DNA of 50,558 nt from Dinochytrium kinnereticum. Taxonomy: Eukaryota; Chytridiomycota; Chytridiomycetes; Chytridiales; Chytridiaceae. The stretch's first letter is position 1. Each line of letters begins with the position of its first letter. The notes beneath the pieces are model-generated. The model saw only the letters and a program-made list of their open reading frames with translations, was not told the DNA's origin and did no database searches. Where the stretch lies: NCBI GenBank assembly GCA_027604005.1, contig JADGJT010000151.1, positions 1 to 50,558 of the forward strand, in the 5' to 3' direction. This document shows positions 375 to 47,708 of this stretch, piece after piece. The translations under genes and the position numbers were made by a program.

Positions 375-1089
375 ACACCTTATTTCGGTGACAATTTCGA
401 CTCTTATCTTCACCTACCCAAGTCCATTTGCATTGATCAATCCCAATATTGCTCCATTATAATCTCACGTTTCCTTGCAGCCGCCGATCTTACCATCCAC
501 TCCACTCCACTCCCTCATACTTTTGATGCTTCCCTCCTCCTTGCCCCTCAAACCCCTGATGGTCTCAAAATCCCTTCAACACCTTCCCTACAGCCCCCTG
601 ATCGGCAGCCTCCAATACCTCGCGGTAGGCACCCGACCCGATATCAGTTTCGCCGTAAACACCCTCAGCCGTACCTTCGAAAAGCCAAATACCTACGCCT
701 GGACTTGCGGTATCCACCTCCTTCACTACCTCAAAGGCACACAACACTACGCTCTCTGCAAAAAGAGCCTCCCCAGAACCACGCCGCCCATCATGACGCC
801 ACTTACCTGCTACTCCGATGCAAACTTGGGCGATGTCTGTAGCTCTCGGGCTACAACCGGCTACCTCATCCAACTCGCTGGCGGCCCCATCTCCTGGCGC
901 TCTAAACAACAACATGATGTCTCCACCTCAAGAACAACCGCCAAACTTATGGCATTAGACAGAACCGCCAAAGAAGCTACCTGGCTCTACAACATCCTCA
1001 CCGATATTGGCACCCCCCATCCAACACCACCACATTATAGAAACTATCCTAACCTCAAAACATTCCAAGCCGCTATCAAAGTATCCTAA
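375..1089 (+). mobile_element. Degenerate Ty1/copia retrotransposon pol fragment (RT end plus RNase H)
   Basis: This is the 3' part of a copia-type polyprotein, broken by at least one frameshift. The upstream frame (about 375-560) reads like the end of reverse transcriptase, with YFG near 381 and IDQSQYCSIIISRF followed by a TPL motif. The frame then shifts and continues from about 562 with YSPLIGSLQYLAVGTRPDIS and the RNase H core: CYSDANLGD, TTGYLIQLAGGPISWRSKQ and AKEATWLYNIL. The segment that normally reads SSTEAEYMAL here reads SRTTAKLMAL, so the catalytic glutamate is lost. No integrase, gag or clear LTR is visible, and the frame ends in a tandem repeat. It is a dead relic. Confidence 0.85.
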
Positions 1090-15260: not shown

Positions 15261-17553
15261 TCATCCACATCCATTACCCCCAGTCACCCCCATTTGCTCC
15301 ACAGATTGGCCACCAGCCCCATCCCCAAGCACCATTCTCGTCCTTATCAAAAGAACTGACCTATGCGCCTCCTCCAATTGCACCTCCAACGTTCTCACCC
15401 TTTCCACAAGCTCCATCTGCCTAATGAGAAGATTCGATTTTTCATTCTCAAGTACAGCGGTGCGGATGTTCAGCATCGAGTTTTCGTGCTCCAGCTCCTT
15501 GACCATGTGCTCCAGCTGATCAAGCTGCAAACGCGTTGACGCGACCGAAGTGTGGGAAAGGACAAGGGAGTAAAAGAAAATTTTGCGTGAGTCATTGAAC
15601 TTCTGGTAGCCAATCAAATGGGATCGGGGGCACCTGAGGATCGATGCGCCAATGATCTGAGAGGATCATCGCCGCTGATCCATTCAAAGGAGGTCAAGCA
15701 GAAAAAAAAATAAATAAATAAAAGCTCACCCTCGAGTTCTTGCGTTCACGACTGCGACGTGCTGCCAGTGTGTTCCTGCGGCGTCTCAGGAGATCCTTCT
15801 CGTCAACCTCCTCACCGTCTTCACTCCCCGCATGCGCATCCGTCTTCCCGTTACCAGCCTCCATGGCACCATCCTCCGTCTTGAGCTTCGGAATCCGCCG
15901 CCGACCTCCTGCTGTTGAAGACGTATCACTCTGCCGCATCTTCTTCACCGTTGCCTTCCCGCCACTCGATGCCACATCCGCAACGTCGTCATTCTGCGGC
16001 CTGCCTCTCTTTCCTCCAGCCGCCTTCTGACGTTCACTCTCCATGACGGACTCAATTAGCTCCTCGATTGTTGCTTGCTTCCGCCCAAGCTCGATCTTGT
16101 CGTTGTGCCTTTGTAAAGTATAAGAGCTTGCTTGTGCTGGGGATGCCATCGTCATAAGAGACCCTGGGGTGTAGGGCTCGGAGATGGATGTCGACCTTGC
16201 GCTCGGTTCATGCGTGGATGTGTCGGGCTGTTGGTAAATCTGGAAGCCTTCCGGTAGTGGGGAAGGGGAAGGGGAAGGAGACGTTATGCCATTCTTGGTT
16301 TGTGAGGCGATGGAGGTAGGCATTCGGATAGGATGATGTTGAACGTGAGATGTTGGGAAAGGCTGTACCAGGCATAGTGAAGGGGTTACAGAATCGGAAA
16401 GACGGTTGGTGCTGGCTGGGCTGTCAGTTGCAGGCCGTATTTTCGCGTACTGGCGTTGACGTTGCGTACTTAATTGTACCGCTGTAGTTAACAAGTCTGC
16501 GCTAGCGGCAGCGACGGACGCAGAGAGGCGTCTGGTCATTGTTGAGGGGGAGAATGGCGTATTCGACGTGGAGGACACCAAGGCGCTAACCGGCTGCTGT
16601 GGTCGGAAGACGGTGTCGAGGAGGAATGGGTGGGTGGAGCCATCTCGTAGGGAGGTCGGGCTCGCGTCTCCAGTGGATTTAAAGGAAGGATACCCGGAGC
16701 AGTTTGGGAGGGTAGTTTCATCATCCAGACTGATGAGCTGGTTCATAGCGTCTGTTATGGCTCCTGCAGTTGGTCGACCATCCACCATCATTGCGGTTGT
16801 CGTTGGAGCGGACGAGGTTTGTAGGCTCCTAAGAGCCCAATGATCGTCAGTACGAAATTGTTGCAGCATGTCGGGGAGATCCCCCCAAGCCTGGTTCATG
16901 TCTTTCAGCATGGCCAGATGAGACTGCTCTAGGTTGCTTGATGTCGTTGATAAGAAGGATGGTGCCAGCATGGCTTCCGCGGATGCCCCCGCCGTTGCTA
17001 CAACGGCGGCGGCAAGGGAAGTGACGTGGCGATGAATGCCGTCCCATTGTAGCGGGATGTCGAGCGCGCTTCCTGCATCCGCAGCTGATCTACCCAGAGT
17101 CATGTCCACACCTCCACCTTGTCCTCCGCTGAAAGAGGCTGCCATTGCCCGCTTGTTCTGTTTCCTCTGTCTCATCTGGTCCCAACTGTCACCCATGAAA
17201 GAACTGGGTGTGTTTCCCCCCGGTGATGATGGCGAATCGCTGCCGTGAGGACGATAATGCTTGAAGACAGCAGCAGAGTTTGGGCTGAAGGTGTTGTAGA
17301 AAGCAGCAGATGACGGCCTCCCCTGAGCAGTTGGCAGCCTCAGATAACAAAGACGGCCAGCACAAGGATGCTTGATTGGGCAGAGGCGAGCAACGGATTG
17401 GAGGGATCGTCGGAGGTGAAGCTGATCACAGAAGTGATGCGACGGTCGCTGCTCCTTCGACACTTTTTTCGCTGGCCAACGACATAGTGACCGCGTGCTT
17501 GGGCCCTTTGTTGTTGCGGTGCCACAGGAATGACTCAGGCTAGTTGCCTGCAC
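15261..17553 (-). CDS. bZIP transcription factor, two exons
   Basis: Exon 1 (17553-15730) encodes 608 residues, mostly low-complexity Ser/Thr/Pro/Ala with an acidic stretch (EDGEEVDEKD) just before the basic region. The DNA-contact helix is NTLAARRSRERKNSR (594-608), with the invariant Asn594 and Arg602. The zipper lies in exon 2 (15524-15261) and follows in exact register: LDQL then Leu at 612, 619, 626, 633 and 640. Choosing the acceptor GCAG before CTTGAT restores the canonical R-x9-L spacing, which proves the join. Total about 695 aa. The protein is a nuclear DNA-binding dimer of the Gcn4/AP-1 type; targets are unknown. The N-terminal start at 17553 is the longest choice and could be further in, since the first 90 residues have no family match. 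The C-terminal end could also be altered by a further intron near 15360. Confidence 0.85.
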
Positions 17554-17807
17554 ATCCGGGATATTCCGTACGGGAACAGATACCTTTTTCGGACTGTTAC
17601 CCCCGGATTGCCGCCAAAAGATGCATCAAATGATTCAGCTTTGAACGCGTCGCCTCACCAACCACGCGTTGCTTTCACGAGTCAAACCACTGTTTTTGGT
17701 TTTTTATTTTACACGATTGAGGATATACCGTAATTACAAGGGAGAGGAGAGGGGGGAACAGAAGAATACGCGGAAGCAGCATCGACATGGCGGCAGAGAG
17801 AAGGTCT

Positions 17808-18430
17808 TCACGCGTCCTCAACCTCGATCTCCTCCTCAGCATCAGCCGCCGGTGGAGCTCCCGGCTTGCCCTTCCCTTTCGCCGCACCCTTAGCACCTCT
17901 CTCATTTTCAGCATCCTGTCCCTTTTTCGCCTTTGCTGCTTGACTCTTGGCCGCTCCCTGGCCCTTCGCCTTTGCAGCTAGTCTCTTCGCCTCGCCTAAC
18001 CCTTTGTTTGCCCCTTGCCCTTTGTTTGCCCCTTGACCCTTGTTTACCCCTTGACCTTTGTTTGCCTCTTGACCTCTGTTTCGGCCTTGACTCTTAGCAG
18101 CCCCTTGACCGTTGCCAGCGCCTTTCCGTTTCCCTTCACCTTGGCCACGACCTCGGCCCTTGGGAGCGACAGGTTCCGCTTGCGCAGCGACTACTGCCGG
18201 GTTGACTGCGCCAGCCGCTGCAGCTGCAGCTTCGGCGATCTCTTGTTCAAGAACATCAGCCTCCTGACGACGGTATATCAAGTTCGAGGTTCCTGGAAGC
18301 TGTGAATTTTCGTTAGTTATGCATTGTGGGACAAGCAGTGTGAAGGTTTGGAGAGACTCACCACTGCAGCCTCAATAGCGGCGACAGAGGCCAGAAGGGC
18401 GAGAAGGCACGAGATGGTGTTGAATTTCAT
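17808..18430 (-). CDS. Secreted Lys/Gly/Gln-repeat protein, array gene A
   Basis: Exon 1 (18430-18362) is 69 nt and encodes the 23-residue leader MKFNTISCLLALLASVAAI then EAAV. A short phase-0 intron (gtgagt...cacag) is followed by exon 2 (18299-17808). The predicted 186-aa precursor is a signal peptide, a short propeptide LPGTSNLIYRR ending in a dibasic pair, and a mature disordered region: an Ala-rich start, then repeats of the type NKGQGANKGQG (about residues 90-130), then Lys/Ala-rich sequence and an acidic end (EEEIEVEDA). Mature charge is strongly positive. I recognise no domain. It lacks the LKxxVDxFK motif of the other members but shares leader, intron position, RR site and GQ-type repeat with genes B and C. 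Confidence 0.8.
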
Positions 18431-18562
18431 GATGATTTTGATTTGTTTGCAGTGGAGATGATACGCAGAGAGTTGTTGCTTGGCTGGATGCTTCAAAGCC
18501 TGCAGCGCAGTATCTGAACAGACAGGTGTGTGGTATAGACGTGAGAAGTGGACTCCCTCGAC

Positions 18563-18570
18563 CTTTATAG
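18563..18570 (-). promoter_or_regulatory. TATA box of array gene A
   Basis: CTATAAAG read on the minus strand, about 135 bp upstream of the ATG. All seven array genes have a similar element 75-180 bp before the start. Confidence 0.6.
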
Positions 18571-18854
18571 CCAACCTCGTTCCCATAACGCCTCAACGGC
18601 AGGCGTCGCCAAAAAGTAACTGAGCGCGTTATTGGTGCATGCGACAGAACAATATAAAAAATATAATGTTGTACATAAGAAGAAAATTAAAGACCGTCGT
18701 ACACTCTAGAGGGAGGCGTGAGTGTGGCGATCGACACGACACGCAACACCCCCTTCATCCTCCAGCGCCTCATGAGGCAGAGGTGCTGGATTGGTGGTCC
18801 GTTCAGGGTTGATATTTCACCCTCAACACTTTGCTTTCTGGTAGATTGCTGTAG

Positions 18855-19127
18855 TCAGAGCCAGTGTTTTGAAATCTTATCACTGGGTCTGACGGTATAT
18901 GCTAAACCTTGGACTGGTAAAGTATTCCGTCTGTCAGCATGTCTAATCAACACGGACATTTGAAATGGCGTGTGCTTCATAACAGTGGCCCTCTCATCCC
19001 ATGCCATGTTATTCGGCAAGTTGCCATTGCCTGTTGCCTCAACGAAGTAGACGGTCTTGACAAAGCGACCGCGTAAGACGCCATACACACACAAGATGAA
19101 GCAAATCCAAGACATGAGAGCCTTCAT
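18855..19127 (-). CDS. Possible small secreted protein or decayed array member
   Basis: A 90-codon frame starts MKALMSWICFILCVYGVL, a hydrophobic leader that resembles a signal peptide. It then reads RGRFVKTVYFVEATGNGN with no low-complexity region. It lies between array genes A and B in the same orientation. There is no clear TATA box, intron or RR site, so it may be a chance frame or the relic of a leader exon. Confidence 0.25.
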   Translation of the reverse strand: MKALMSWICFILCVYGVLRGRFVKTVYFVEATGNGNLPNNMAWDERATVMKHTPFQMSVLIRHADRRNTLPVQGLAYTVRPSDKISKHWL

Positions 19128-19555
19128 CTTGCTGACTGAAAATACAAGATCGATGAAAGAGAACATCGGAATAGAATATCAGATGATATTGATGCATCCT
19201 CAGCAGGAGTATCTGATTCACTGTGAACACTATTTCCACTGTTTGATGACCTCGAAAGTATTGCTAATGCTCGGAAGGCTCACTACAACAAGCGTAAAGG
19301 GTCAAGAAGCAGCATGAGACGAAGAGCAAGAGCTCTAAAGAGATTAGATCGAGCTCCTCAACATTTATCCAAGAAAGATGATAAACACCATAAAATGAGA
19401 AAACAGTTTTAAAAAATGCGATGTGCAATGGATGTGTTATTTACCTATACAAATATGTGCAGGAAAATCGATCCAGCAAGGGAATGGGGGACCATGAATC
19501 AGCGCACGTCCAAGTGGAACCAGTACCGTGCATCCAGGAGTGACGAGCCACCAGT

Positions 19556-20084
19556 CTACTCGTTCGCAGCATCACCGTTTCCAGAGTTAGCTTCAGCAGC
19601 CTGGGCATCAGCGGCACCAGCAGCCTCCACCTCCTCCTCAGCAGCAGCCGCCCCACCCGCAGCCACCTCAACAGCCGCTGCTCCACCCGCAGCCGCCTCC
19701 GCCGCCTTAGCCGCCTCAGCAGCAGCAGCAGCATCCCCAGCTCCAGCCCCATTCACAAGCGTCTCAAGTTGAGCGGTAAGCGTCTTGAACTGATCCACCA
19801 CAGCCTTCAATTGATCCGCCGCAACGGCTCCAGCCGCCGCGCCACCAGCAGCAGCTTCAGCAGCCGCATCCGCCGCCTGCTTCGCGGCCTCAGCAGCCGC
19901 AGCGTCCCCAGCTCCAGCAGCAGCGGCCGCCCCCGCAGCTTTCTTGGCAGCATCCACAGCGGCAGCGTTTCCACCTGCGTCTGCAGCAGCCTTGGCGGCC
20001 TTTTTCGCAGCCTTCTCAGCGGCTTTGGCGGCCTTGTTTTGTTGACCCTTGTTGTTCTTGTTCTTGTTCTGGCCTTGACCTTGG

Positions 20085-20123
<39 letters not shown>

Positions 20124-20357
20124 GCGGCAGCACCGGCTGCTACCGCTGCGGCCGGAGGCTTAGGATCACGACGTGAAAGCCCAGTGTTGGAGGAGGGGAT
20201 CTATAAAAGAAATAAGATGATGAGGATGACTGGGTATAGGAGAATATTTTGATGACCAACACGCAGGTTTAAAATAGAAGAGACTTACAGCAGCGGCATC
20301 GACCAGAGAGACGGCAAGGAAGGCGGCGACAAGGATTTGCTGGATGGAGAACTTCAT
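19556..20357 (-). CDS. Secreted Ala-rich protein, array gene B
   Basis: Exon 1 (20357-20289) is 69 nt: MKFSIQQILVAAFLAVSLVD then AAA. Exon 2 (20200-19556) completes a 237-aa precursor. After the leader comes IPSSNTGLSRR|DPK with a dibasic site, a perfect GQ dipeptide run encoded by a 6-bp repeat at about 20069-20130, NKNKNNKGQQNKAAK, then a long Ala/Gly/Glu/Lys stretch expected to be helical or disordered. The conserved segment LKAVVDQFKTLTAQLETL follows, ending in VNG, then more Ala-rich sequence and the C-terminus GNGDAANE. Gene C is a close paralogue, as are parts of gene G. Codons are GC-rich, and long spurious frames on the opposite strand are shadows of the Ala repeats. Location is probably extracellular or cell-wall; function unknown. 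Confidence 0.85.
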
Positions 20358-20498
20358 GATTGCTTTGATGCTTTGGAAACCGGTGATTTGGAGGGTAGTA
20401 AGGGCTTTTGTAGTTTGAATTGGAGGTATCAAAAAAGGTTGGATTATCTCGATTGCTAGATGCAGCTGATGAAAAACAGATAGTAGCGTCCAGCGTCC

Positions 20499-20506
20499 TT
20501 TTTATA
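20499..20506 (-). promoter_or_regulatory. TATA box of array gene B
   Basis: TATAAAAA on the minus strand, in the context GGTATAAAAAGG, about 143 bp upstream of the ATG. Confidence 0.65.
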
Positions 20507-21311
20507 CCTTGCATGGGCTAACAGATAGCATGCATGGCGAGTAACGCCCACCCCCTAATTGGTTTGCAATTGACCCCCCTTTCGTGTCAGGGCGTTCGCC
20601 TTCGAGGAATCTTTCAGGGCAAAGGGAAGTAAACAGTTTCAGGTAACCACTGTCACACGCGTGAAATTGGTGAGCGCGTTTCAGGCTTTCCGTCCAGCGT
20701 GATGTTTTGACGGGTGAATAACAGCTGTAGAGATTGGTCCTTTGGAATGTGTGAATGGGTGATCTTGTTATGTTGTTGGTTGGCTTCATCCCGCCGTCTC
20801 CTTACTTAACGCAAGTTTCTATTGTGTGGTGTTTGATTTGATTGCAGTTGGGATGCGAGGAAGGTGATATCCTGCAAAGATCCCATCGCAATATTCAGGC
20901 AAGAGAAACCTTTTTTTTTTGACGGAATGAGAACGAAGTATTCGCTGGTGAAGAATCCACGAAACTATCATCATAATTTATTTCGTGGTAACGGCGGTCT
21001 GTAAACACAAGCAGCTACTCCTTGACAGTAACTGCAGAGAGATGATCGTTCTCTTGATAGAACTGGAAGTCAGGAACACGCCATGAAAACGTGGCGTTAT
21101 GCCCACTACGAAATCCAGGAAATCATACGAGATAAAAGAAAACGAGTGATGTGCAGGTTTTTATTTACACCATCCATATTTACACGTGCAAAAGGTAAAG
21201 AAAGGTATTGAAGAAAAGAGAAGCTCAAAATAAAAATAAAAAGAGAATCAATGATGCGTGTAAAGAACCAAAAGAGGATGGCGGAGTTGCTCAAGTGCTT
21301 TTGGAGGAACC

Positions 21312-22213
21312 TCACTCATTAGCAGCGTCGCCGTTCCCAACGGCAGCACCTTCGTTAGCTGCACCAGCAGCGCCTTGGTTCGCAGCCCCACCAGCTGCAG
21401 CCTCCTCAACCTCAGCAGCCTCAACAGCAGCACCTCCGGGAGCCGCGACCTCCCCAGCACCAGCAGCAGCACCTCCGGGAGCCACGACTTCCCCAGTCTC
21501 AACAGCAGCACCTCCGGGAGCCGCAACCTCCCCAGCGCCAGCAGCAGCACCAGCGCCATTCACAAGAGTCTCAAGCTGAGTCGTGAGAGCTTTAAACTGA
21601 TCCACAATGGCCTTCAGCTGATCAGCCGCGACCACCCCAGCCGCCGCACCTTCAGCTGCCGCTCCACCAGCAGCAGCACCAGCCGCCTCAGCCGCAATCT
21701 TCCCAGCCTCAGCAGCAGCAGCCTCTCCAGCTCCAGCAGCAGCAGCAGCCTCGGCGGCCTTCTTCGCCGCATCAATAGCAGCCGCATCTCCCCCAGCGGC
21801 AGCAGCAGCCTTTTCAGCCTCCTTTGCAGCCTTCTTTGCAGCCTTCTGTTGTTGCTTTGCCGCACGGTTTTGTTGACCCTTGTTTTGTTTCTTGTTTTGG
21901 TTCTGGCCCTGACCTTGAGCTTGGCCGGCTCCGGCGGCAGGGGTTGCAGCGGCACCAGCCCCGCCAGCGACGTCGACTACTGCGGCACCTCCTGCGGCAG
22001 CTGGAGGCTTGGGGTCGCGACGGGAAAGGCCAGCTGAGTTCGGTCCGGGAATCTGCAGAGGGGGATGAAAAGTTAGTGCGGGCCCCAGTAGGATGAAAGA
22101 ATAGCATATGGGAGAAAGAGAGGACGGCGGGGAAGGATACTTACAGAAGCGGCCTCAGTGACAGAGAAGGCGAGAAGCGCGGCGACGAGGATCTGGTGGA
22201 TGGAGAACTTCAT
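21312..22213 (-). CDS. Secreted Ala-rich protein, array gene C
   Basis: Exon 1 (22213-22145, 69 nt) encodes MKFSIHQILVAALLAFSVTE then AAS. Exon 2 (22052-21312) completes a 269-aa precursor. The propeptide is IPGPNSAGLSRR before DPKPP, almost the same as in gene B. Then come a Gln/Asn/Lys-rich part (QAQGQNQNKKQNKGQQNR), a helical-looking Ala/Lys/Glu stretch, the shared motif LKAIVDQFKALTTQLETL then VNG, and three copies of a 14-residue unit of the type GEVAAPGGAAVEA. The C-terminus is GNGDAANE. With gene B it forms the clearest tandem duplicate pair. No enzymatic domain is visible. Confidence 0.85.
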
Positions 22214-22328
22214 GTTGATGAATTGAGTAGGCTTGAAAAAGGAAAGGGCTTTGTTTGCAGCTGGAAGGTATTCAATTGGTATCTCAGATATCGCGTTTTA
22301 CTGATGGTGAACGAATTGATGGTTTTCC

Positions 22329-22335
22329 TTTTATA
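22329..22335 (-). promoter_or_regulatory. TATA box of array gene C
   Basis: TATAAAA on the minus strand in the context GGGTATAAAAGG, about 116 bp upstream of the ATG. Confidence 0.65.
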
Positions 22336-23178
22336 CCCATCTTTTCCTCCTGACTGCAAGAATCACTTTAAGCGGTTGCACGGGGTGCAGCCATCCCAGA
22401 CGCAAATTGGTTTTAGGCCACTTCTAAAGCCGTCATTGCGTCAAGAAACAAACGCTGCCGCATAACGCAGCGTCCATTTCCCCCAACACCTTTTCATTAT
22501 GGCATTTACAGCAATTTCTGTTGGTGTGTGACCGGTAATACCTGCGGATGGTTTCAGAGTCAACGTACTTGACAGCATGTGTTGAGGGTAAGCTCCATAT
22601 TGGACGCATAGTGGATTGGCGCCAAGACTAGGGCAACGCCATATATAGACCTAAAAGTGCTCATCTCGTTAAGCATTGGCTGCAGCCTGCAAAAGTCAAT
22701 GGACTGCTCTTCTAGAGCTGAAACATCAGCAGTGCGGCTTGTTTTAGAGTTGGATGAAATGAGTTTCAAATTTAGATGTTTTTTGCTTTTGTTAACTTTT
22801 TTCCTCGCTGGTCCTGATGTTTTCAAACTAGGAAGTTGAATAAAAGGGAGCACACAGTAGCAAGGAAAAAGTAAACGAGATAAATATTCTCAGAAAGAAA
22901 TGAACAAAACATCATAGGTGAGAGTAGAATCTCACGAAAAGAGAAACGAAAAGATACGGGAGGGAATATACAAGAAGCAAAAAAAAAAAAAAGAAAGAAA
23001 AATCGTAGGCAAAGTAAGCAAGATATTTACAACCAAAAGAATGCTAAATGCATAAAGAAAGATGCCCAAGTCGAAGAAGAAAAAAAAAGAAAATGCCCAC
23101 AAAATAGAATCCAGAAGCTGCAGATCAACCAAAACCTCATTCCATATCCTCAATCCCGTCCCTAGATACACCTCAGAT

Positions 23179-23424
23179 CTATGAATTCTCTACCTCCTGA
23201 AAACCGCATTGCTCGTCCCTCCTGTTGAATTTTACTCCCTTGACTACTATTCCAGGTGTTGGTGCCACAGTTGCTGATGCAAAAGTACCAGCCGTACCAG
23301 AAAATGTGGAAGAGCTCGAAGTAGAAGAGGTAACAGGCGCAGCAGACGTTACGGCTGGAACAGCAGGAGGGGCAGGAGGGGCAGAAGGAGGAGCAGGGGG
23401 AGCGGCATTTGCAAGGGCCTCAAG
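23179..23424 (-). pseudogene. In-frame continuation of array gene D after TAG
   Basis: 81 sense codons directly follow the TAG in the same frame: LEALANAAPPAPPSAPPAPP, then Ser/Thr/Val-rich sequence, ending in FNRRDEQCGFQEVENS before a second TAG at 23181-23179. The composition is like the secreted paralogues and unlike noncoding flanks. From 24108 to 23179 is 930 nt, exactly 310 codons. Confidence 0.55.
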
Positions 23425-24108
23425 CTAAGCAAAAAGCGACTTCATTGCAGTCACAAGTTGCTTTAGGCTACCGGCACCAGGAGTAGGAGGTGTGTTTGCA
23501 GCACCTGTAGTGGCACCTGAAGGAGGGGCATTGGCTGAGCCAGCGCCGGCGGGAGTAGCGGCGGCTTTCGTAGCCTCGGAGATAGAGCTCGCGATGCTAG
23601 TTACTGCCTTTCCAACACCAGTGATAGAACTCGTGGTGGTGGTTGTTGAAGAGACTTGGGCAGCACCAGCACCAGCAGCCACTACAAAAGTTGTGCTCGA
23701 GGGAGTTACGGCGGATTCTGGAAGCTTTGGAGCGTTGATACCGACAACGACAGGTGCAGCTGCTTTAGGAGGGCCAGCCTCAGGAGCGGGGGTGACTGCA
23801 ACGGATGGAGACAGACTTGGCGTTACTCGATCAGCTGAAATGGATGGGCTAACGCGTGTAGGGGATCTGGAAGGAGAGCGGAGTGCACGAGGTGTGAAGC
23901 TATCGTCAAACCGGTCGTCATTGTCATTCTTATCCTTAAATCGGTCATCATCAAATCTGACATCGTCAAGGCGATCGTCATCGTCGTCCTCGAAGCGACC
24001 CCGCCTTGGGGTTCGACGTTGAATGCCGTGACTAGGTTCCATTGCAGCATCCACAATGAAGCTGCACGCAAGGACCACCACCAAGATAAATTGGATGCAA
24101 GGTTTCAT
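23425..24108 (-). CDS. Secreted Asp-rich/Ser-Pro-rich protein, array gene D (intronless, possibly truncated)
   Basis: A single exon of 227 aa. The 23-codon leader MKPCIQFILVVVLACSFIVD then AAM is the same length as the first exon of its neighbours, but the intron is missing. Next come EPSHGIQRRTPRRGR with the dibasic site, an Asp/Arg/Phe repeat zone (about 38-70, such as DDDRFKDKNDNDDRFDD), a Ser/Pro/Thr region with SPSISADRVTPSLSPS, and a Ser/Thr/Ala/Pro part. The frame ends at TAG (23427-23425) inside the shared motif: LKQLVTAMKSLFA, stop, LEALAN. Paralogues carry Gln at the stop. The frame remains open to 23179, so the gene is truncated, read through, or recently mutated. It combines features of both array subfamilies. 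Confidence 0.75.
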   Translation of the reverse strand: MKPCIQFILVVVLACSFIVDAAMEPSHGIQRRTPRRGRFEDDDDDRLDDVRFDDDRFKDKNDNDDRFDDSFTPRALRSPSRSPTRVSPSISADRVTPSLSPSVAVTPAPEAGPPKAAAPVVVGINAPKLPESAVTPSSTTFVVAAGAGAAQVSSTTTTTSSITGVGKAVTSIASSISEATKAAATPAGAGSANAPPSGATTGAANTPPTPGAGSLKQLVTAMKSLFA

Positions 24109-24234
24109 GGCTTTTATGGATGGAATGAGTGAAGGGAGATATTGGATATAAAGGGAGATGAGGATATTGAGCGAATTTCGTGTAGAGATTTCGATGCTTC
24201 CGATGAGAGACATTTGGCAGCGCATCTGCTCCTT

Positions 24235-24240
24235 CTTATA
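24235..24240 (-). promoter_or_regulatory. TATA box of array gene D
   Basis: TATAAG on the minus strand in the context GGCTATAAGAAGG, about 127 bp upstream of the ATG. It is a weaker match than in the other array genes. Confidence 0.5.
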
Positions 24241-25139
24241 GCCAAATGAACGACGTATGCAAGGTTATAGCGTCGGTTAGCCTGTTTCGAGTAGGGTGGC
24301 TCCTAACTCTAACCCTTTAGACCTAAAGCAACATCAACAACAATACCTTGGCTCTTGCGACCAACAAGATAAAAGATCGTGACCATTGTACCACATCCGA
24401 ATAAGCCAAGACCCAAATAGGAACTTGACCTGTTTCAATTTTGATTTCGACATGCTAGCCATTTCCCAGTTGGCACATATATGAGGGCTGGCGTTAACAG
24501 CGTCTGAGCCAAGATCGGAGAAGAAGGTTTCTAAGGTTGTTGCGTCCTTCAAATGCTCTCTTGCATAACTCGTAATCTTGGAATACGGCCAAATTAATAT
24601 AGATATAGCCATACGTGTTTCATTTATGATTGACTTTAACTTAAAAGGTGTTTGGAAATAATATAGAAGTGTCTTTGTATGATTAATTGAGGGCAGAGGA
24701 ATCCTAATGAAGGGAGTGAAAGATCTGGGGACGACGCAGCTTCAACCTACTGAAAAGGCACACAACACTTTTAAATACCCGGCCATTGTATACAAAACAA
24801 GTCTTTATTGGCAGAAGCAAGAAAAACATCTACATACACAAAATATTGTATTATTTTAAACCAATACTTGGCTGATATGGGCTGGAGCACGCTTCAGGTG
24901 ATGCTGACAAAAAATGGCCAATCGTCTGAGGCATGGATGCCCAAATATAATTCAAGCCTTACAAAAAGGTAGAGAAAATATATATACACACAAGTACAGC
25001 TTAAAAAAAAAAAGAATATATTTAAAACAAAAAAGAAAAGAGCGCAAAAGATCTCACACAAGTCCATAGCATCAAAACAATACAAGAAGTTAAAATATGG
25101 TACAAGAAAAAGCAAAGTAATGCAAGTAACTGAGCACGT

Positions 25140-25670
25140 TCAATCATCGTCACGGCGCCCACGACTGTCATCGAAGCGATCATCATCATCATCATCGTCA
25201 TCCCGACGTCGACCCGTACTGTCGTCAATGCGGCGGTTCCTAGACAACCCAGTGCTGTCATCCATCTGGCGGCGTCCCGTCCCAACACGACTGGTACCAC
25301 GAGCAGGGGCTTGGCGCCTTCCAGGAATGGGGGAGGGAGAAATACTAGGGGAGGTGACTCGACCGACTGAAGGTGTTGGGGTTGAGACACGAACGCCGGG
25401 TGTAAAGCTATCATCGAACCGGTCATCATCGTCGAAACGGTCGTCATCATCAAAGCGGTCGTCGTCAAAGCGGTCACCATCGTCATCGTCGCGACCGCGT
25501 CGAGGAGCGCGGCGGTGGAGGCTATGTTGAGCGGGTATCTGTGAGTGGGATAAAAATGGGATGATTGTTGAGCGAATTTAGCCAAAGGATAAAAGACTTA
25601 CCATCGCAGCCTCGGTGATGGAGCTGCATGCGAGAATGACCGCAGCGAAAGCAATGATAGATATCTTCAT
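25140..25670 (-). CDS. Secreted Asp/Arg/Phe-repeat protein, array gene E
   Basis: Exon 1 (25670-25602) is 69 nt: MKISIIAFAAVILACSSITE then AAM. Exon 2 (25538-25140) completes a 155-aa precursor. The propeptide IPAQHSLHRR leads into APRRGR, then a repeat zone of DDDDRFDD units, a Ser/Thr/Pro linker (SPSISPSPIPGRR), then DDSTGLSRNRRIDDSTGRRR and a final poly-Asp run with RFDD. Strong Asp blocks alternate with Arg, so the protein is a polyampholyte that is surely disordered. Gene F shares every block. The function is unknown; binding of Ca2+ or of a charged wall polymer is conceivable only from composition. Confidence 0.8.
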
Positions 25671-25745
25671 GATTCTGTGTGTGAATTTTTAGTGCTGAAA
25701 GAGCTAGCAGGATGGTGTTGATAGAGTAATAGCTGAAATTAGTCC

Positions 25746-25753
25746 TTTTTATA
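25746..25753 (-). promoter_or_regulatory. TATA box of array gene E
   Basis: TATAAAAA on the minus strand in the context GTGTATAAAAAGG, about 76 bp upstream of the ATG. Confidence 0.65.
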
Positions 25754-26664
25754 CACATGGTCGCAAACAAAGGTTGCAGCGTAAGTGTCACCGATCCAAG
25801 AATGCTCTCGTCTAAAACCTTTAGCACCGAATTTTAAGTTTCCATTTGTTTCTTGACATCTGTCGGCAGGTAGTATGAATTTGGATCGGCTTATTCTTGG
25901 AATGCCAAGGACACGGTTGGATCTCTGGCCAATCAGTCTGTTTGTCCATCAACCTCGAGAGAGCCAGGATGAGGGGATCTTCAACGTTTCGACCGCTCAC
26001 AATAGCATGAGCTATTCACTACAAGAAATTTGATTTTTGAGAATAAGCCAAGACTAGGATATAATAATCAAGTGTTGTCAAATCATGAAGCTTGTTTAAC
26101 TTTATGTAAAGGCCAAGAAAGGCATTGTGGGAGGGGTTAACGCCGGTGCAATGTTCAAAGTAGCATCTTACAGATCTGAAAGGTTTTATCCACGGTCTGA
26201 GAGGTTAGGTCTTATCACGGGCGGATTTAGCTCCTGCTTATTTTGCTGACTGAACCGCAATACAAGACAGGAGCTCATTACAAGACTATATAAAGAAATT
26301 CAGAGTAATAACTTAAGGGTGAATTCAGCCTCCTTCGAGCTTCATTTCCATCTCATCTATAGCGTCAAAGGTGTAAAAACTACCACGTATTTATTCTCCT
26401 TTCATTCTGATGCCTTATTCCACTGCCCTCTTACCGGATCTTTCCGGATGGCTGCTCTTTCTATCCGTTCCCAGAACTTTCCATAGCGGCAGAATAAAGA
26501 TTCCTACAGTAATGACAGCATCGAATATTTAGGCAAAGGATATATTTTTATTGAAGCGCATTGAAAAATGTACACTGAAAGGAAAAACAGAAAGGAATTC
26601 ACAAAACAAAAAAATATCTCTTTCCGGCGGGCCAGATGTCTTAACACATCATCAAAAGTTGCGT

Positions 26665-27509
26665 TTAGCGGCGGTCATCGAAGCGATCATCATCGTCATC
26701 ACGTCGCCTTCCAGTGCTGTCATCAATGCGACGATTCCTGGGTAACCCGGTGCTGTCATCAATCTGTCGGTTCCTCGGAAGCCCGGTACTGTCATCAATC
26801 TGTCGGTTCCTGGGAAGCCCGGTGCTGTCATCCACCCTTGGGTTCTGGCCCCTTCCACCAGCTCCTTTCGGATTCCTAGCTCTTCCATTTCGCTGTGGGC
26901 CGCCACCAGCGACAGGCGTCGCGCTGGGAGATGAAGAAGGCGAAGTCGGGGGGGATACAGCCGCGCGAACTCTGGGCGTGACGCTGGGAGATGAAGAAGG
27001 CGAAGTCGGGGGGGATACAGCCGCGCGAACTCTGGGCGTGACGATAGGAGACGAAGAAGGCGAAGTCGGGGGGGATACAGCCGCGCGAACTCTGGGCGTG
27101 ACGCTAGGAGACGAAGAAAAGGATTCAGCTCCACCTGAAGTAGATGGCGTGACCCGTGGAGCTGCGACGCCACCAGCCGCGGCTCCACCAATTGAAGGAG
27201 TTGGAGAGCTTGAAGGAGATGCGACGGCACCGGAAGTGATGCTATCATCAAACCGGTCATCATCGTCATCAATGTCATCAAATCTGTCTTCGAAACGGTC
27301 GTCGTCGTCGTCGTCGTCGTCACCACCGCGGCCGCGGCGAGGGGCACGTCGCGTGAGGCCGTTAATGTGAGCAGGAACCTGTTCCGAAAAAGGATGTGAA
27401 GTTAGAAGGAGTGGGACTTCTTCAGAAGAAGGTGTTCTACCAAGGCTGCTTCGGCAATGTAGGTGCATGCGAGAATCAGCGCGGCGAAGAAAACGATGGA
27501 AAGCTTCAT
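26665..27509 (-). CDS. Secreted Asp/Arg/Phe-repeat protein with 60-bp repeats, array gene F
   Basis: Exon 1 (27509-27441, 69 nt) encodes MKLSIVFFAALILACTYIAE then AAL. The intron runs gtagaa...gaacag, and exon 2 (27378-26665) completes a 260-aa precursor. After the leader: VPAHINGLTRRAPRRGR, a poly-Asp/RFDD zone, a Ser/Pro/Gly region, three 20-residue repeats (VTPRVRAAVSPPTSPSSSP-type) encoded by a 60-bp minisatellite, a Gly/Arg/Asn stretch, then repeats of DDSTGLPRNRQI, and an acidic DDDDDRFDDRR end. It is the longer sibling of gene E. Exon 2 could be read without splicing in one frame, but splicing gives the shared 69-nt exon and the signal peptide. Confidence 0.8.
26941..27120. repeat. 60-bp minisatellite, three copies, inside array gene F
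   Basis: Units 26941-27000, 27001-27060 and 27061-27120 are nearly identical (a few changes near the unit end), and a partial fourth lies at about 26920-26940. The period of 60 keeps the reading frame, so repeat number can change without destroying the protein. A shorter in-frame repeat (about 39 bp, encoding DDSTGLPRNRQI units) lies at about 26715-26835. Confidence 0.95.
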
Positions 27510-28639
27510 GTTGGAATGTTACTGCTAGACTATTGAGTGCGGGTGCTGCTGTTGTTGGTTGTGAGGGCGGACAGAAAATCTAGGCGCGCTTTTATACACC
27601 CATCAAGAGCCATTGGAATGGTCATGGGCGGACCATTGTTTCAAGCAGATCTCACACAGCTAGGAATTAGGACGGCTAACGCTAACGAAACAGCGTGTTC
27701 ACTGACTTAGAAAGAAGAGCCAAGAATCCTTTCAACAAACTGTCTTCTGACCAAAGTAGCGCCAAGGACACTGTCAACAAACTGTTTTCTAACCAATCAT
27801 CCAAATTCGTCAAAAAAAACAACAAAACAGCTGTCAGAAACCATCAAAATCAAGGAGTGCCCATCGTTTCGCCCACTACCCTGCAATAGGATTTGTAATG
27901 ATGATGAAGGAGAGCCAAGAAAGTGGATTTGGTTCATAACCTAGCTTACGATCCCTGCATCTATGGTGTCAAAATACCTTTTAGCCCAGAAGTGTTAACT
28001 CCTTTATATAATCTAGGCACTTATTATAACTAATTATTATAATGTTTGGTTCCTCGCATTAAAAGCCGCTATTTTTTTTGTGGCAATTCAGCCCTGTTTT
28101 GCCCTTTGAGAAAACGATAAAACACTTTAAGCAGAGAATTGTGTTGTGTGCTAATAAGTGCCACGATGCGCACAAATATTACAGATCATTTCAGCTGGGA
28201 AGGTTATGTCGAGATCTAAAAAGATAAGCTATAATAAAGATATATTCAATTGGCAAGTAGTAGGTATTGAATTAACCATTAACGGCATGGCTGTATGAGC
28301 CGAGTCAAAGACGCTTTCCGAGACTGCTCGAGCGATGGCATGGCACATGACAGGCTAGATTTGCATCGCCTCCTCTCCAATAGATATGGTTGACTGCACA
28401 TGACGACGAAACATGGTCGGTAATAGAACAATTCTAAACAGTTGAAAAGTGCCCTAAACGCGACTCAAATTCAAAGGCATTGCAGTTTGTGTATAGAAGT
28501 TGGAAATATGACCAGAGCAGGTTGAGGTATTGGGAAAAGGGTATAATTCTGGTGTGTATTGTAAAACATGTGCAATGAATAGACCAGGGCATGAAGAAAC
28601 GAAATAATAAAACCACAAAAAGTTCCACTAAAGAAGGAA
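27510..28639. other. Intergenic between array genes F and G, AT-rich
   Basis: It contains the promoter of gene F and an AT-rich part at about 27990-28080 with near-repeats of TTATTATAACTAATTATTATAA. No gene signal. Confidence 0.5.
27590..27596 (-). promoter_or_regulatory. TATA box of array gene F
   Basis: TATAAAA on the minus strand in the context GTGTATAAAAGCGC, about 81 bp upstream of the ATG. Confidence 0.65.
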
Positions 28640-29726
28640 TTACTCATTCGCCGGGTCGCCGTTACCGCCGTTGATAGCAGCCTCAACAGCCTGAGCAGCC
28701 TGAGCAGCCTTGGCCTCCAATTCATCAGGTGTGGCCTCAGCTGCAGCCTCCTCCACCTCCCCCGCCTCGGCAGTATCAGCAGCATCAGCCGCGGCCACCT
28801 CCGCGTCAGAGGCGGCAATCACAACTTCCCCAGCTGCGGCGCCAGTCTCAGCAGCAGCCTTCTCCGCAGCAGCCCTAGCATCGGCAACTTCTTTCTCCTC
28901 CGCGGCCTTAGCCTCGGCGGCGGCTTTCGCGTCGGCAGCGTCAGCGGCTGCAACCTCGGGGTCAGACGCGGCAACAACGACAGGCGCGGCAGCTTGACCG
29001 TTCAAAAGACCTTCGAGTTGGTTCGTGAGTTGCTTGAAGGAGTCGAGGACTTGCTTGAGTTGATCGGCATTGACGGCCGCCCCCGCGGCTTGACCTTGCT
29101 GGTTCACCTGACCCGGCTGTTGCTGTTGGTTGGCCGCAACCTGACCTGGTTGCTGCTGCTGGTTAACCTGGCCCGGTTGCTGCTGCTGGTTGGCAACCTG
29201 GCCTGGCAGTTGCTGGTTGCCCGCTTGCTTTTCTTGGTTAGCTCCTTGTTGGATGGCCGCTTGCTGCTGCTGCAGGATAACTCTCTGTTGATTGGCCACC
29301 TGCTGCTGCTTAATCTGCTTCCTAACCGCCTTCTCCAACTGTTTCTGCTGATTCACCGCCTGGTTATTCCTCTGCTGCTGGGCAACAACCTGATTCTTGA
29401 TTCTCTGCTGGTTGTTCAGCCTCCTCTGCGCCTCAGCAGCAGCCGCAGGTCCAAGGCCCTGATTACCCTGACTAACAATCTTCACCCCTCCATTCCGCTG
29501 AGGCTGAGATCCCTCAGTGATCACGTTGACACGTTGACCTTCGACGCTCTGGATGTCTTCGGCTCTAACGGATTGACCGATGGGACGCCTGGGAAGCTAT
29601 GAAAAAATGAAGGGTTAATTATAGGCTCAAGGGTGTTTGGAATTATGAGTAACTTACTGCTGCAGCGTCGACGAGAGAGCAGGATGCGGCAAGGACGGCA
29701 AGGACGGTGACGATGGTGATCTTCAT
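28640..29726 (-). CDS. Secreted Gln-rich protein, array gene G
   Basis: Exon 1 (29726-29658, 69 nt) encodes MKITIVTVLAVLAASCSLVD then AAA. Exon 2 (29596-28640) completes a 341-aa precursor. The mature part begins LPRRPIGQSVRAEDIQ, then a Gln/Asn-rich, prion-like zone of about 150 residues (NNQQRIKNQVVAQQQRNNQ and several copies of GQVANQQQQP). The shared motif is LKQVLDSFKQLTNQLEGL then LNG. An Ala/Glu-rich helical region follows, and the C-terminus is GNGDPANE, matching genes B and C. No catalytic motif is visible. The Gln-rich zone suggests self-association or an adhesive or coat role, but that is only composition. Confidence 0.82.
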
Positions 29727-29901: not shown

Positions 29902-29908
29902 TTTTATA
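29902..29908 (-). promoter_or_regulatory. TATA box of array gene G
   Basis: TATAAAA on the minus strand in the context ACGTATAAAATG, about 176 bp upstream of the ATG. Confidence 0.55.
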
Positions 29909-31063: not shown

Positions 31064-32074
31064 CTACAGAGCAACCCCAACAACCCCAACGGCAGCCAAC
31101 ACACCCATAACAGCCACGAAACCCCTTCCAAGAGCCTCATCAACAATAACGCTCTTCCCAGCCGCACTCGCCTTCCCAGTTCCAGTAGCAACCTTGGTAG
31201 TCGTGGTCAACCCCGCAGTAGCCGAAACGCCAAAAGGCGCAGTGGGCGAAGCAATCGACACCAAAAGCGACTGAGTAGCCAACGGATTAGCGTTCGGCAA
31301 GTCAGCGGTGCACACAATCTGCTGGTTCGCAATATCAAACACCCTCAGCTGGTTGACAGAGTTGAACGAGTATCCAACGATAGGGTCACGGATGAGACTG
31401 TAGATGGAGGAGTTCTGGTTGTTGACCGGGGCAACGTCTTGCGCAGAAAAGTTGACCGCGTCGTCGCTGCGGATGACTTGCTTTGTGACGGGGTCGAGGC
31501 TGATGATGCCGGCGTACCATTTGGTTTGGAGAGCGTTGCCAAAGATGAAATCTTTTACCATGAACTAAGGCAAAGGGGGTATTAGAGAGGCTCTGGGTCA
31601 CTGAGAAAGAGGTGCACCCCGACCAAGCAACAAAACCGCTCATACATCCACAAGTTAAAAATACTCGATGAGCCAACACTTCTACTCCACTTAAGACGAC
31701 ATCCCCAATACAAGACAGTGGCATCAACCACAGCACGTCCAGCCGAATCTCCCAAGCGCAAAGCTCTACAAATATAAATTCCACACTCTAAGGAGAAGCC
31801 TCCCCCGCTCCCTTCCCTCCATCCAATGAGCCTAAAAAACAAAAGAAAGCCAACTCACCGAACACCCATCCAACACAACAACCGTTCCAGAGCACCTAAA
31901 CGCAATGGTGGGGTTGGTCTTCTGATACCCAGTGACCTGAATCAACGGCGCCGTAATCCTCCCAGCAACCCAACCATCCGGAAGCTTAGCAGGGTCACAG
32001 ACCTCCGGTTTGGGTGGAGCGGCAGCCGAGAGCGTCGCAAAGACGGCGAGAGTGAGTGTGAGGAAGGAGAGCAT
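31064..32074 (-). CDS. Secreted, possibly GPI-anchored protein of unknown function, two exons
   Basis: Exons 32074-31859 and 31564-31064 join in phase 0 to 238 aa. The N-terminus MLSFLTLTLAVFATLSAAA is a signal peptide. The mature part has two or three Cys (PEVCDPAKLPDGW, IAFRCSGTVVVLDGCS), a central segment with YAGIISLDPVTKQVIRSDD and QLRVFDIANQQIVCTADLP, then a Thr/Ser/Ala/Gly stretch. The C-terminus is hydrophobic (VAVMGVLAAVGVVGVAL) and ends at the stop, a layout typical of GPI-anchored fungal surface proteins. It is not similar to the array proteins next to it: the leader is shorter, no RR site follows, and the intron position differs. I do not recognise a family. Confidence 0.75.
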
Positions 32075-39029: not shown

Positions 39030-42000
39030 TCACCACTCAAGACCCTCGTACGCAAAAGTTCTAGAGTTGGGCGAATAGTTTCGCTTATAAAACTCGCTGT
39101 GTTATCAAGAAGAAAAAAAAATCAGAGTTTAGTCTACAAGCAGCACAGACGGACAGAAAAACAAATCCAGAAGCTTAAAAAAAAAAGTTGGGAGTAAGGC
39201 AAGAGCAAAAAACAAAAAGCAATCCAAACTCCCGACCTAGAAAGAGCAAAGGAACAGGAAAAAGAAGAGAAAAAAAACAACAACAAAAAAAAACAAAAAA
39301 ACAAGCAAACGATCCAACACGCAAACCCACAAAATAACTTTAAAAAAAGAACAAGAAAAAAAAAACAACATCACCCACCGAAACCTCTTAACAGGCCTAT
39401 CCTCCTTCACAAAAACCGGTCTATCAAAATAAGTCTTATTGCTCCACAAAAAGATATCATCCGCAAACGCATGCGCAGCCTCATTCCAAACATGCTTCGC
39501 AAGCAACCAAGGCACCCCCCTCTCCGCAAACACATCATCCCTCATATGAAGCACAAGTCCACCCCCGCCACCCCCACTGACCGGCAAAAATGTCTTCACA
39601 GTCGTCACCTCCCCATACGGCGTCGAAAACCGAAAGTACACGATCCCTCCTTGACCCGTAAACTCAACGCGGGCGTGAACGTTGCCAGACGGGAGGGCGT
39701 GGTCAGAAAAGACGCTGTGGAGGGTCGGCACGTCAAAGAAGGTGAAATGGTGGTGGCTGGGGTCCGGGGTAACATCTGATTCAGATGCGCGGAGGTAGCG
39801 GTTGCTCGGGTCTTCGGAGGGATCAACTGGGAAGGGAGGCGTCGTGTTGAGGAGGGGCCCGTCGTCGCCAGTAGACGGCGCCCAACGGGTTCGGTGCTTC
39901 ACATAGAGAAATCTGTCGAGGAAAGGCAGGGCAAGGCGGGAGTGAACTTTACCAAAGTGCATCCTAGTTGTTGTTGTTTTTTTTTTAGTAGATGAAGAAG
40001 ATCAAAAGGTTCGGTCCAAGCAGTGTAGTCAAGGAGCATGGTGTTAAGCAACCAAGCTTCAAAACAAAAACCAAAATAAAATAAAGCAGCAATATCGTGA
40101 GCTTAACGATAACCTTCCACATCACGGATCCAGTCCATTACACAAACAAAAAACAATCCCCCCCTCCAAGAAACCAAAACCAAGAAATCCCAATCCGCCA
40201 CCAACCCCAATCCACCCTCTCTCAAGAAAAAAAAAACACCATCTAAAACACACCCCAAACCCCTTCCCCAATAACCCCCCCCCAAAAAAAAAAAAAAGGA
40301 AGGAAGGCACCCACCAATCCGCCGCATTCTCCGCAAAATCCTGAATATGCATGTTGAGCGTCGAAGACCGACTGGAAACCGAATAAAACTGCTTCCCCTC
40401 CAACGGAAACGGTCGAGGCTCATACAACGGCTCGCGTCCCTCCGCGTCAAAATAGATGCAAACAATGCCAGCAAACTCTCGAACGGGCCATGACCGAGTT
40501 TTGGCAACCTCCGGTACGCTGGCGGCGTAGGGGATGTCAATGCATTTGCCGGTGCGGTCGAAGCGCCAGCCGTGGAATGGCTTTTTTTTTTGGTGTGGGG
40601 AGAGGTGTTAGTGAAGGGAGGAAATGGGGGGGAGGGGGGGGGGGGTAGGGAATAGGTGAGGTTTGGTTGGTATTTCTCTTTTCTCTCATTCTCGGTGAAA
40701 TGAGTTTAAAGGTGAAAACCTTTCTCCTACCCCAACCCCCCCAACAACAAAAATAACAAGAAACGGAAGGGAAAACAGCAATCAAAAATAAAAAAAATCA
40801 AACCATTAATAAAAGCCAAAAAAAAAACAAACAACAAAAAAAAAACAACAACAACAAAAAAGCACTCACACACTCCACAGAATTCCCCACCACCTTCCCC
40901 CCAACCGCCACATTCGCCCCAAGATGCGGACAAATCGCATCCAAAACCCCAACAACCCCATCCACCCCCCTAAACACAGCAAACTGTCTCCCAAGCGCCC
41001 CAACAAGTCTCACCTTCCCAACCCCCACATCCGCAGCCCCAGCAACGCGATACCATCCATTCGGAAAGGGCGGGGGAAACCTCCTAGCCCTTCTCCTCTG
41101 TCCATCCGTCTCAGCAATCTCCCCAGCGTTCGTGGTGGTCAAAAAGACCTCACCAGGAGGGTGGTGAGGAGACATCGGGTCAAAGCTCTTCTTTTGGAGG
41201 GTGAGGTTCAGGGCTTGGATGAGGGGTTGGAGCGCCCAGCGGATGCCGAGGATGAAGCCGGCGGAGGCGACGAGGGCGAGGGCTAGGAGTTCGCGGTTGT
41301 GGGAGACGTAGGGCATCAGAAAGGCTACGAGGGGGTTGGAGTCCAGGGCTGGGATGACGGAGAGTAGACCTGCTGCAAGGGGGAGCCAGAAATAGTTCTG
41401 CAGGATTTGAGAGGGAAGGGGGGGTTACCAAAAAGCGTTTTTAGAAAGGAAAGGTTGGGAATACCATCAGAGAGTAAGACTTGTTGTTCAAGAGGATGAA
41501 GCAGGAGATAGCGGCACTAAGCAAGAGGATATCATGACTGGTAGGGTCGAGACCTGCATCCACGTGAATGATAAATGTTAAAAAAAAATAAGACAACCAT
41601 AGCAAATGTAATACCCCCTTCCCACGGAAAGGGCCAAGATCACAAAGAGACTTTAAAAATCAGAAAGAAAAAAAAGGTAAAAGGTCACTATACACTCTAA
41701 AGCAAGCAAACCCCCCTACTCCATTCATACATGAAGTAAAATCAAAGCAAAAGAACCCCCCCTCTCCAAGCAATAAAGCTTCAAAAAACAAAAAGCAAAA
41801 CTAAAAAACAAAACAAAACAAAAAACAACCAAAGAAGCAAAACCTACCCGTCGCATCACAAATAGCCTGAAAAGCCAGCCTCCCCGCGACCAACACCCCC
41901 GCAAAAGACAAATAATACCTCATCACCTCCGTCTCCTCTCTCTTATCCAACTTCCTCTCATGATAATCATGATGAATAAAGAACCCAATCGAGAACGCCA

Positions 42001-47302: not shown

Positions 47303-47598
47303 CCTCCAAAGGAAGAATTACCATTATTACTATTATTTATTACTCTTTGATCTAATAATAATAAATCATTCCGCGTGTGAGGGCTGCTGCTCTTTCTCTT
47401 TTTCTTCTTCCACTGTTCTCTTATTCTTTTCTTCTTCTTTTCTACTTCTTCTTCTATTCTTCTCCTCTTCTCTTCTCCTTCTCTTCTTCTTCTGCATTCT
47501 CTTTCTTTCTTTCCTTCAACTTCTCAACCAACATTATTATTTATCATTATTATCAACAATAATAATAATACTACTCACTCAACCCCCTTCTCCCCGCG

Positions 47599-47605: not shown

Positions 47606-47708
47606 GGCGCGCACTTCCTCCCATCATCCTCACCCTCACCCTCACTCACCTCCCCTTCCTTGCCTCATACAAGAAACACACCTCCTGCCTGCCCATTGAA
47701 TTCAAGTC

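Follow-up and report, generated by a model that had tools for sequence, protein, structure and literature searches.

Seven tandem genes with a 23-codon leader, predicted to be a separate exon in six

The 50,558-nucleotide contig JADGJT010000151.1 of the chytrid Dinochytrium kinnereticum (the whole of which is referred to below as the window) carries seven genes, denoted A to G, for predicted secreted proteins with a common leader layout. The genes lie in tandem on the minus strand between positions 17808 and 29726, where an initial annotation had placed them, and make up a cluster of 11.9 kb with a start-to-start spacing of 1.56–2.22 kb. In agreement with that annotation, six of the seven gene models (A, B, C, E, F and G) begin with a first exon of 69 nt followed by a predicted phase-0 intron, and gene D has the same 23-codon leader without an intron. 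The predicted introns are 61–92 nt long and have GT...AG borders; the one in gene F is needed for the reading frame because its 62 nt are not a multiple of 3. A TATA box, also pointed out previously, precedes each gene (TATAA[AG]A at −83 to −182 in B–G and TATAAAG at −139 in A), and the six minus-strand TATAA[AG]A sites found between 17.5 and 31 kb all lie less than 200 bp upstream of a start, namely those of B–G.

The leaders resemble signal peptides, as judged by the hydrophobic core and the −3/−1 rule, and a cut after Ala21 is the only site that fits this rule in all seven. The leader had been called identical, which is true of its length (23 codons) and not of its sequence, with 6–16 of the 23 residues identical per pair; what the leaders have in common is the length, Met-Lys at the start, Ala21-Ala22 and a modest sequence likeness. 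At residues 3–20, on average 5.3 of the 18 positions are alike versus 2.0 in shuffled sequences, and none of 5000 shuffles scored as high. By this comparison, the seven leaders look homologous though not identical. The likeness extends into exon 2, which starts with [ILV]P in six genes and with EP in D, and in all seven genes the expected Arg-Arg (RR) pair follows soon after, 7–10 residues into exon 2 or, in G, after 2 residues.

Two types of mature chain and a singleton

The mature parts, previously described as completely different, turned out to be partly shared. B, C and G have in common a 24-residue helix module (ADQLKxxxDxFKxLTxQLExLxNG) and a GNGD[A/P]ANE tail, and RRxPRRGR and a block rich in Arg and Asp recur in D, E and F, so that the mature parts comprise two families and the singleton A. 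When the whole 22.4-Mb genome was searched with the 34-residue module of G, only B (E 3.7e-6) and C (8.0e-6) were recovered besides the query itself; likewise, the first 115 residues of D recovered, besides D, only F (3.2e-12) and E (6.4e-12). The homology of B, C and G rests on the module and the tail because the whole-exon DNA likeness of B and G lies within the codon-shuffled control (66.8 vs 69.7 bits).

Three further relationships among the mature parts were considered and rejected. In its mature part, A is not a convincing relative of B, C or G (22, 88 and 184 of 300 shuffles, respectively, scored equally well), and D does not appear to be a hybrid of both types, the match of its end to the module of B, C and G being weak (equalled by 24, 31 and 3 of 2000 shuffles). 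An origin of the mature types by frame shift, as told for the AGL genes discussed below, would predict likeness of exon-2 DNA in shifted frames, which stays below the highest of 20 codon-shuffled controls for C/G (51 vs 62 bits), B/C (41 vs 55) and A/B (29.7 vs 32.6) and is barely above it for E/F (34.0 vs 28.3) and A/C (28.3 vs 26.8).

None of the seven proteins contains Cys or Trp beyond the leader or matches a Pfam family above the cut-off, and none has a hydrophobic C-terminal tail (the last 20 residues average −3.1 to 0.4 in hydropathy). The Pro+Gly+Ala content after the RR pair is 47% in A, 59% in B, 60% in C, 33% in D, 19% in E, 31% in F and 34% in G. Gene F includes, at 26915–27118, near-identical 60-nt repeats with 92–96% identity between shifted copies. 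In a charge-hydropathy plot, E falls most clearly on the disordered side (−0.39), followed by A and F (−0.11 each). AlphaFold2 models consist of helices of low confidence for exon 2 of B and show no secondary structure for exon 2 of E. The amphipathicity of the helix module was equalled by 78, 62 and 1 of 5000 shuffles in B, C and G, respectively.

Rates of change in leader and second exon

For B/C, the synonymous (dS) and nonsynonymous (dN) distances are 1.17 and 0.18 in exon 2 (205 aligned codons) and 0.57 and 0.17 in the leader; for E/F, the respective values are 2.12 and 0.24 (120 codons) and 0.97 and 0.19. The exon-2 dN/dS ratios of these two closest pairs are ~0.15 (B/C) and ~0.11 (E/F). 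For each of the two pairs, eight codon-shuffled controls put through the same alignment gave a far higher proportion of nonsynonymous differences than the genes themselves (0.42–0.49 vs 0.16 for B/C and 0.44–0.56 vs 0.20 for E/F), which indicates that the low dN is not an artefact of the aligner. On these sequence grounds, the genes look constrained and coding. In the deeper pairs, dN in exon 2 exceeds that in the leader (0.55 vs 0.41 for D/E, 0.74 vs 0.38 for D/F and 0.61 vs 0.52 for B/G), that is, exon 2 changes 1.2–1.9 times faster, at an exon-2 dS of 1.7–3.5. Insertions and deletions, which are numerous in exon 2, were left out of dN, and the length and composition of the second exons shift through repeats. 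The earlier description of the second exons as fast-changing thus suits D/E, D/F and B/G, along with the many indels, and fails for B/C and E/F, in which dN is close to that of the leader.

Distribution in the genome and in public data

We searched the 22.4-Mb genome with a pattern for the first exon, consisting of ATGAAR, an exon of 54–84 nt (18–28 codons, any frame), GCNGCNNNN and then GTRAGT. Of the eight matches obtained, five correspond to A, B, C, E and G, each with an exon of 69 nt; the same pattern reversed matched twice, so a few stray matches are to be expected. Two of the three stray matches have in-frame stops, and the third is a 21-codon frame on contig C255 which, read by eye over the presumed intron, runs on into what resembles a membrane segment with KRR at its end and lacks the Pro start. 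With the second exons of A, C, F and G as queries (those of B and E were not used), no convincing genome match was obtained outside the cluster; these searches scored only the best candidates, and the assembly may be incomplete. Three weak hits are put down to chance, namely those of F on C459 (E 0.02) and C412 (0.06), each with stops, and one of G on C64 (E 0.42).

Relatives among public proteins were sought for two of the seven genes only: none was found for exon 2 of C among the 7995 candidates sharing most words or for residues 1–90 of G among 147 candidates. The public set does include related genera, as shown by the chytrid best matches of a calcium ATPase frame in the window (see below). 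Rfam gave no match in the window, and nothing recognisable as this family appeared among the matches listed in literature searches on the layout and on chytrids. So far, A–G are new as a family within the reach of the searches made, although their kind of layout is already known.

A putative secreted coat or matrix family

We consider it about an even chance that A–G constitute a tandemly duplicated chytrid family whose products are secreted, are likely disordered, lose a propeptide to kexin and act in an extracellular coat or matrix. Where the initial annotation proposed an expanding family of surface or secreted proteins, the evidence bears out a tandem family whose products are predicted to be secreted, lack cysteine and are likely disordered, and a role in a coat is probable on the strength of composition and analogues. 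Signal peptidase would cut after Ala21, and kexin would then remove a short propeptide after Arg-Arg in the Golgi. The features of a kexin substrate are present, with a dibasic site after a short pro-segment in all seven proteins and a kexin-type gene in the genome: the kexin-type P-domain (P_proprotein) scores over the cut-off on contigs C7, C29 and C33. The cysteine-free mature chain would then join an extracellular coat or matrix, where the two mature types would have distinct roles. The Ala-rich chains of B, C and G, through their single conserved three-heptad amphipathic helix, could pair or bundle, and the Asp/Arg polyampholyte chains of D, E and F could bind water, ions and each other. 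Tandem duplication likely built up the array, with its units of ~1.9 kb, after which exon 2 may have drifted through gain and loss of repeats and indels, and gene D likely lost its intron.

Several observations weigh against this reading. By charge-hydropathy, B, C and D count as ordered and G sits on the dividing line because Ala-rich chains score as hydrophobic, and the AlphaFold2 confidence (pLDDT) of 52 and 54, from alignments of three rows, is too low to settle order versus disorder. Among all windows of the same chain, the amphipathicity of the module ranks only 16th of 180 in B and 13th of 212 in C. The codon adaptation index (CAI) is 0.24–0.42 in the cluster versus 0.77–0.78 for the reference set itself (EF2 and RPS4), and in A, D and F it is below even the expectation from the plasma-membrane calcium ATPase (PMCA) and bZIP-like genes of the window. 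Such codon usage, unlike that of highly expressed genes, argues against a constitutively abundant structural protein, and a highly expressed coat protein was dropped for want of backing from it. Furthermore, A is tied to the cluster by layout alone, the dS of E/F is near saturation, and the assignment to a coat draws on composition and analogues.

The statement in the initial annotation that no named family has this layout is contradicted by the AGL (arabinogalactan-protein-like) genes of Rhizophagus (Glomeromycotina), which have one intron beside the signal cleavage site of the endoplasmic reticulum (ER) (PMC8786786). Their exon 1 is 65–71 nt long (65–79 nt in another passage), four of five genes lie within 10.7 kb and, in R. 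clarus, five of six within 16.6 kb; the products are small, disordered, repeat-rich, secreted and described as lineage-unique, and the signal DNA is more conserved than the mature DNA (PMC8786786). The chytrid genes are alike in the signal exon with an adjoining single intron (69 nt in six of the seven gene models) and in the gathering of copies within about 10–17 kb. Most AGL proteins exceed 70% Pro+Gly+Ala, with a lowest value of 58%, and carry a C-terminal glycosylphosphatidylinositol (GPI) signal (PMC8786786), whereas the content here is 19–60%, with B and C reaching only the lowest AGL value, and no GPI-like tail is seen as judged by tail hydropathy. The Asp/Arg chains and the RR propeptide set A–G apart as well; in the available text on the AGLs, the word dibasic is absent and Kex2 appears once, for Geosiphon proteins (PMC8786786). 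We therefore do not file A–G as AGLs, given that they lack the GPI tail and mostly lack the AGL composition.

Disordered products are also characteristic of the vertebrate SCPP genes. These encode enamel, dentin and milk proteins, carry the signal peptide on exon 2, have phase-0 introns, grew in tandem and include P/Q-rich and acidic groups (PMC4373244, PMC6732285). The likeness consists in a signal peptide on its own exon followed by a phase-0 intron (six of the seven gene models) and is not taken as one of descent, since the genome is fungal by its nearest matches. SCPPs have several mature exons, an SxE phosphorylation motif and descent from SPARC-L1, and no sequence relation is claimed. 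A bolder proposal, which we regard as quite unlikely, is that a chytrid independently evolved the arrangement of vertebrate tooth and bone matrix, with a single locus supplying disordered matrix proteins of an Ala/Gln-rich and an Asp/Arg-rich kind, each having its signal exon, its hydrophobic-Pro sorting start read by Erv29/Surf4 and a kexin-cut propeptide that blocks assembly until the Golgi. The SURF4/Erv29 cargo receptor, domain matches to which occur on one contig of the same genome, reads N-terminal tripeptides such as hydrophobic-Pro-hydrophobic and carries dentin sialophosphoprotein in yeast; its binding of yeast pro-alpha-factor is a prediction by the authors (PMC6097701). An ER-ESCAPE motif of this kind (PMC6097701) would come to lie at the very N-terminus only if cleavage fell after residue 23, which the −3/−1 rule permits in only three of the seven proteins; the motif was rejected and is retained solely for the comparison with tooth and bone matrix.

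To our knowledge, the coat, cyst and adhesive proteins of chytrids are poorly known. Low-complexity secreted proteins escape sequence searches, and the layout described here (a 23-codon signal exon, a phase-0 intron, hydrophobic-Pro...RR and a TATA box) offers a handle for such families in other chytrids. If it recurs, as in the AGLs and SCPPs, this would point to separate signal exons with phase-0 introns as a general companion of fast-changing disordered matrix families.

Alternative explanations

One alternative sees A–G as secreted effectors or toxins. Their mature chains would act on another organism, for instance prey such as algae, and the pressure from it would drive them to diversify. 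Secretion is predicted, the genes are clustered and no public-protein relative was found for the two queries (exon 2 of C and residues 1–90 of G); some chytrids of this taxonomic neighbourhood live on algae. Since both of the closest pairs show dN/dS well below 1, and with neither a Cys-rich fold nor a Pfam domain above the cut-off, we nevertheless consider this explanation unlikely.

The second possibility, which we also hold doubtful, is that these proteins are precursors of short peptides, either antimicrobial or akin to the KEPs (KEX2-processed repeat proteins), so that several kexin cuts would release fragments as the product. KEPs occur in some Chytridiomycota and are recognised by three or more alike fragments between KR/RR sites (PMC6339444). 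A–G resemble them in the dibasic sites (RR in all seven) and the repeats of the mature part, and the leaders look signal-like by hydrophobic core and the −3/−1 rule; kexin-type domains are encoded in the genome, and in-silico cutting at KR/RR yields eight fragments in E, five in F and four in A. The repeats, however, are not split by dibasic sites, and the common RR ends the propeptide, B and C having no RR other than this one. In none of the seven proteins did the in-silico fragments look alike to the extent of the KEP rule, as judged by eye and not with the published pipeline. Myticalins, the antimicrobial peptides of mussels, follow a similar logic with a different layout: they form a multigene family with a conserved signal peptide, a dibasic site and a very variable mature part (PMC5577615), but their propeptide is C-terminal and the signal and mature parts share one exon.

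Stress proteins that pass through the secretory path, either LEA-like or with ice-active Ala-rich helices, appear very unlikely. The Ala/Lys/Glu-rich stretches of B and C and the low-confidence helices modelled in B would suit them, but D, E and F have the same layout without such stretches, and there was no Pfam LEA match.

Under exon shuffling, one mobile phase-0 secretion exon would have been joined to unrelated second exons. The phase-0 intron predicted precisely where the leader ends, the mature part of A, which is unlike the others, and the higher dN of exon 2 in the three deeper pairs are all compatible with such a history. Exon 2 is, however, homologous within B/C/G and within D/E/F and starts alike in all seven genes, and per site the leader differs about as much as exon 2 does in the two closest pairs, which makes shuffling most improbable; for the same reason, little is left of the earlier notion of a fixed secretion exon combined with fast-changing second exons.

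Finally, we give hardly any credence to non-functional low-complexity frames or decaying copies, which the low codon bias, the in-frame TAG at the end of D and the poor donor of F might suggest, but which are contradicted by the synonymous excess of B/C and E/F over the codon-shuffled controls and by the conservation of splice layout, TATA boxes and C-terminal tails.

Coordinates and neighbouring genes

Table 1. Predicted features of the putative coat or matrix gene cluster, in window coordinates
Feature	Position	Strand	Description
Gene G, TATA box	begins at 29908	−	
Gene G, exon 1	29658..29726	−	23 codons, 2 residues longer than the predicted signal peptide; donor GTAAGT
Gene G, intron	29597..29657	−	61 nt, phase 0, predicted
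Gene G, exon 2 with stop	28640..29596	−	LPRR start, Gln-rich, helix module, GNGDPANE tail
Gene G, helix module	28988..29089	−	ADQLKxxxDxFKxLTxQLExLxNG
Gene F, TATA box	begins at 27596	−	
Gene F, exon 1	27441..27509	−	69 nt; non-consensus donor GTAGAA
Gene F, intron	27379..27440	−	62 nt, predicted
Gene F, exon 2	26665..27378	−	RRAPRRGR, Asp/Arg block, near-identical 60-nt (20-residue) repeats, DDSTGLPRNR repeats
Gene E, TATA box	begins at 25753	−	
Gene E, exon 1	25602..25670	−	69 nt; donor GTAAGT
Gene E, intron	25539..25601	−	63 nt, predicted
Gene E, exon 2	25140..25538	−	Asp/Arg polyampholyte
Gene D, TATA box	begins at 24240	−	
Gene D, single exon	23425..24108	−	23-codon leader, EPSHGIQRRTPRRGR, Asp/Arg block; in-frame TAG end at 23425
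Gene C, TATA box	begins at 22335	−	
Gene C, exon 1	22145..22213	−	69 nt; donor GTAAGT
Gene C, intron	22053..22144	−	92 nt, predicted
Gene C, exon 2	21312..22052	−	Ala-rich, helix module at 21549–21644, GNGDAANE tail
Gene B, TATA box	begins at 20506	−	
Gene B, exon 1	20289..20357	−	69 nt; donor GTAAGT
Gene B, intron	20201..20288	−	88 nt, predicted
Gene B, exon 2	19556..20200	−	GQ repeats, Ala-rich, helix module at 19742–19840, GNGDAANE tail
Gene A, TATA box	18562..18569	−	TATAAAGG, at −139
Gene A, exon 1	18362..18430	−	69 nt; donor GTGAGT
Gene A, intron	18300..18361	−	62 nt, predicted
Gene A, exon 2	17808..18299	−	LPGTSNLIYRR start, KGQG repeats, acidic tail

A small open frame between A and B (~18900–19127, minus strand) begins with MKALMSWICFILCVYGV and, by eye, is unlike the leaders of the cluster. 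Directly downstream of the cluster lies a bZIP-like gene (15261–17625, minus strand; Pfam bZIP_2, E 0.0033, under the cut-off), and upstream of the cluster a frame at 31064–31564 (minus strand), without a Pfam match, has a hydrophobic C-terminal tail and possibly encodes a GPI-anchored surface protein.

The intronless frame of 1165 amino acids at 2513–6010 (minus strand) encodes the PMCA. Among the best 120 matches listed, the best-scoring named ones are chytrids, which supports placing the genome in this group; the identity is 72% with Dinochytrium kinnereticum, 69% with Phlyctochytrium bullatum and 68% with P. planicorne. Near the start of the window, 463–1089 (plus strand) reads by eye as a fragment of a Ty1/copia-type polyprotein, with no Pfam match at 0.01. 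Adjoining frames at 39237–41424 (minus strand) with Rieske and KshA_C matches represent a Rieske-type oxygenase gene. At 47700–49610 (plus strand), frames match Carb_bind (PF10645) and GH16; the signal-like start of this gene, with GTATAAAAGG at 47598, continues without an intron.

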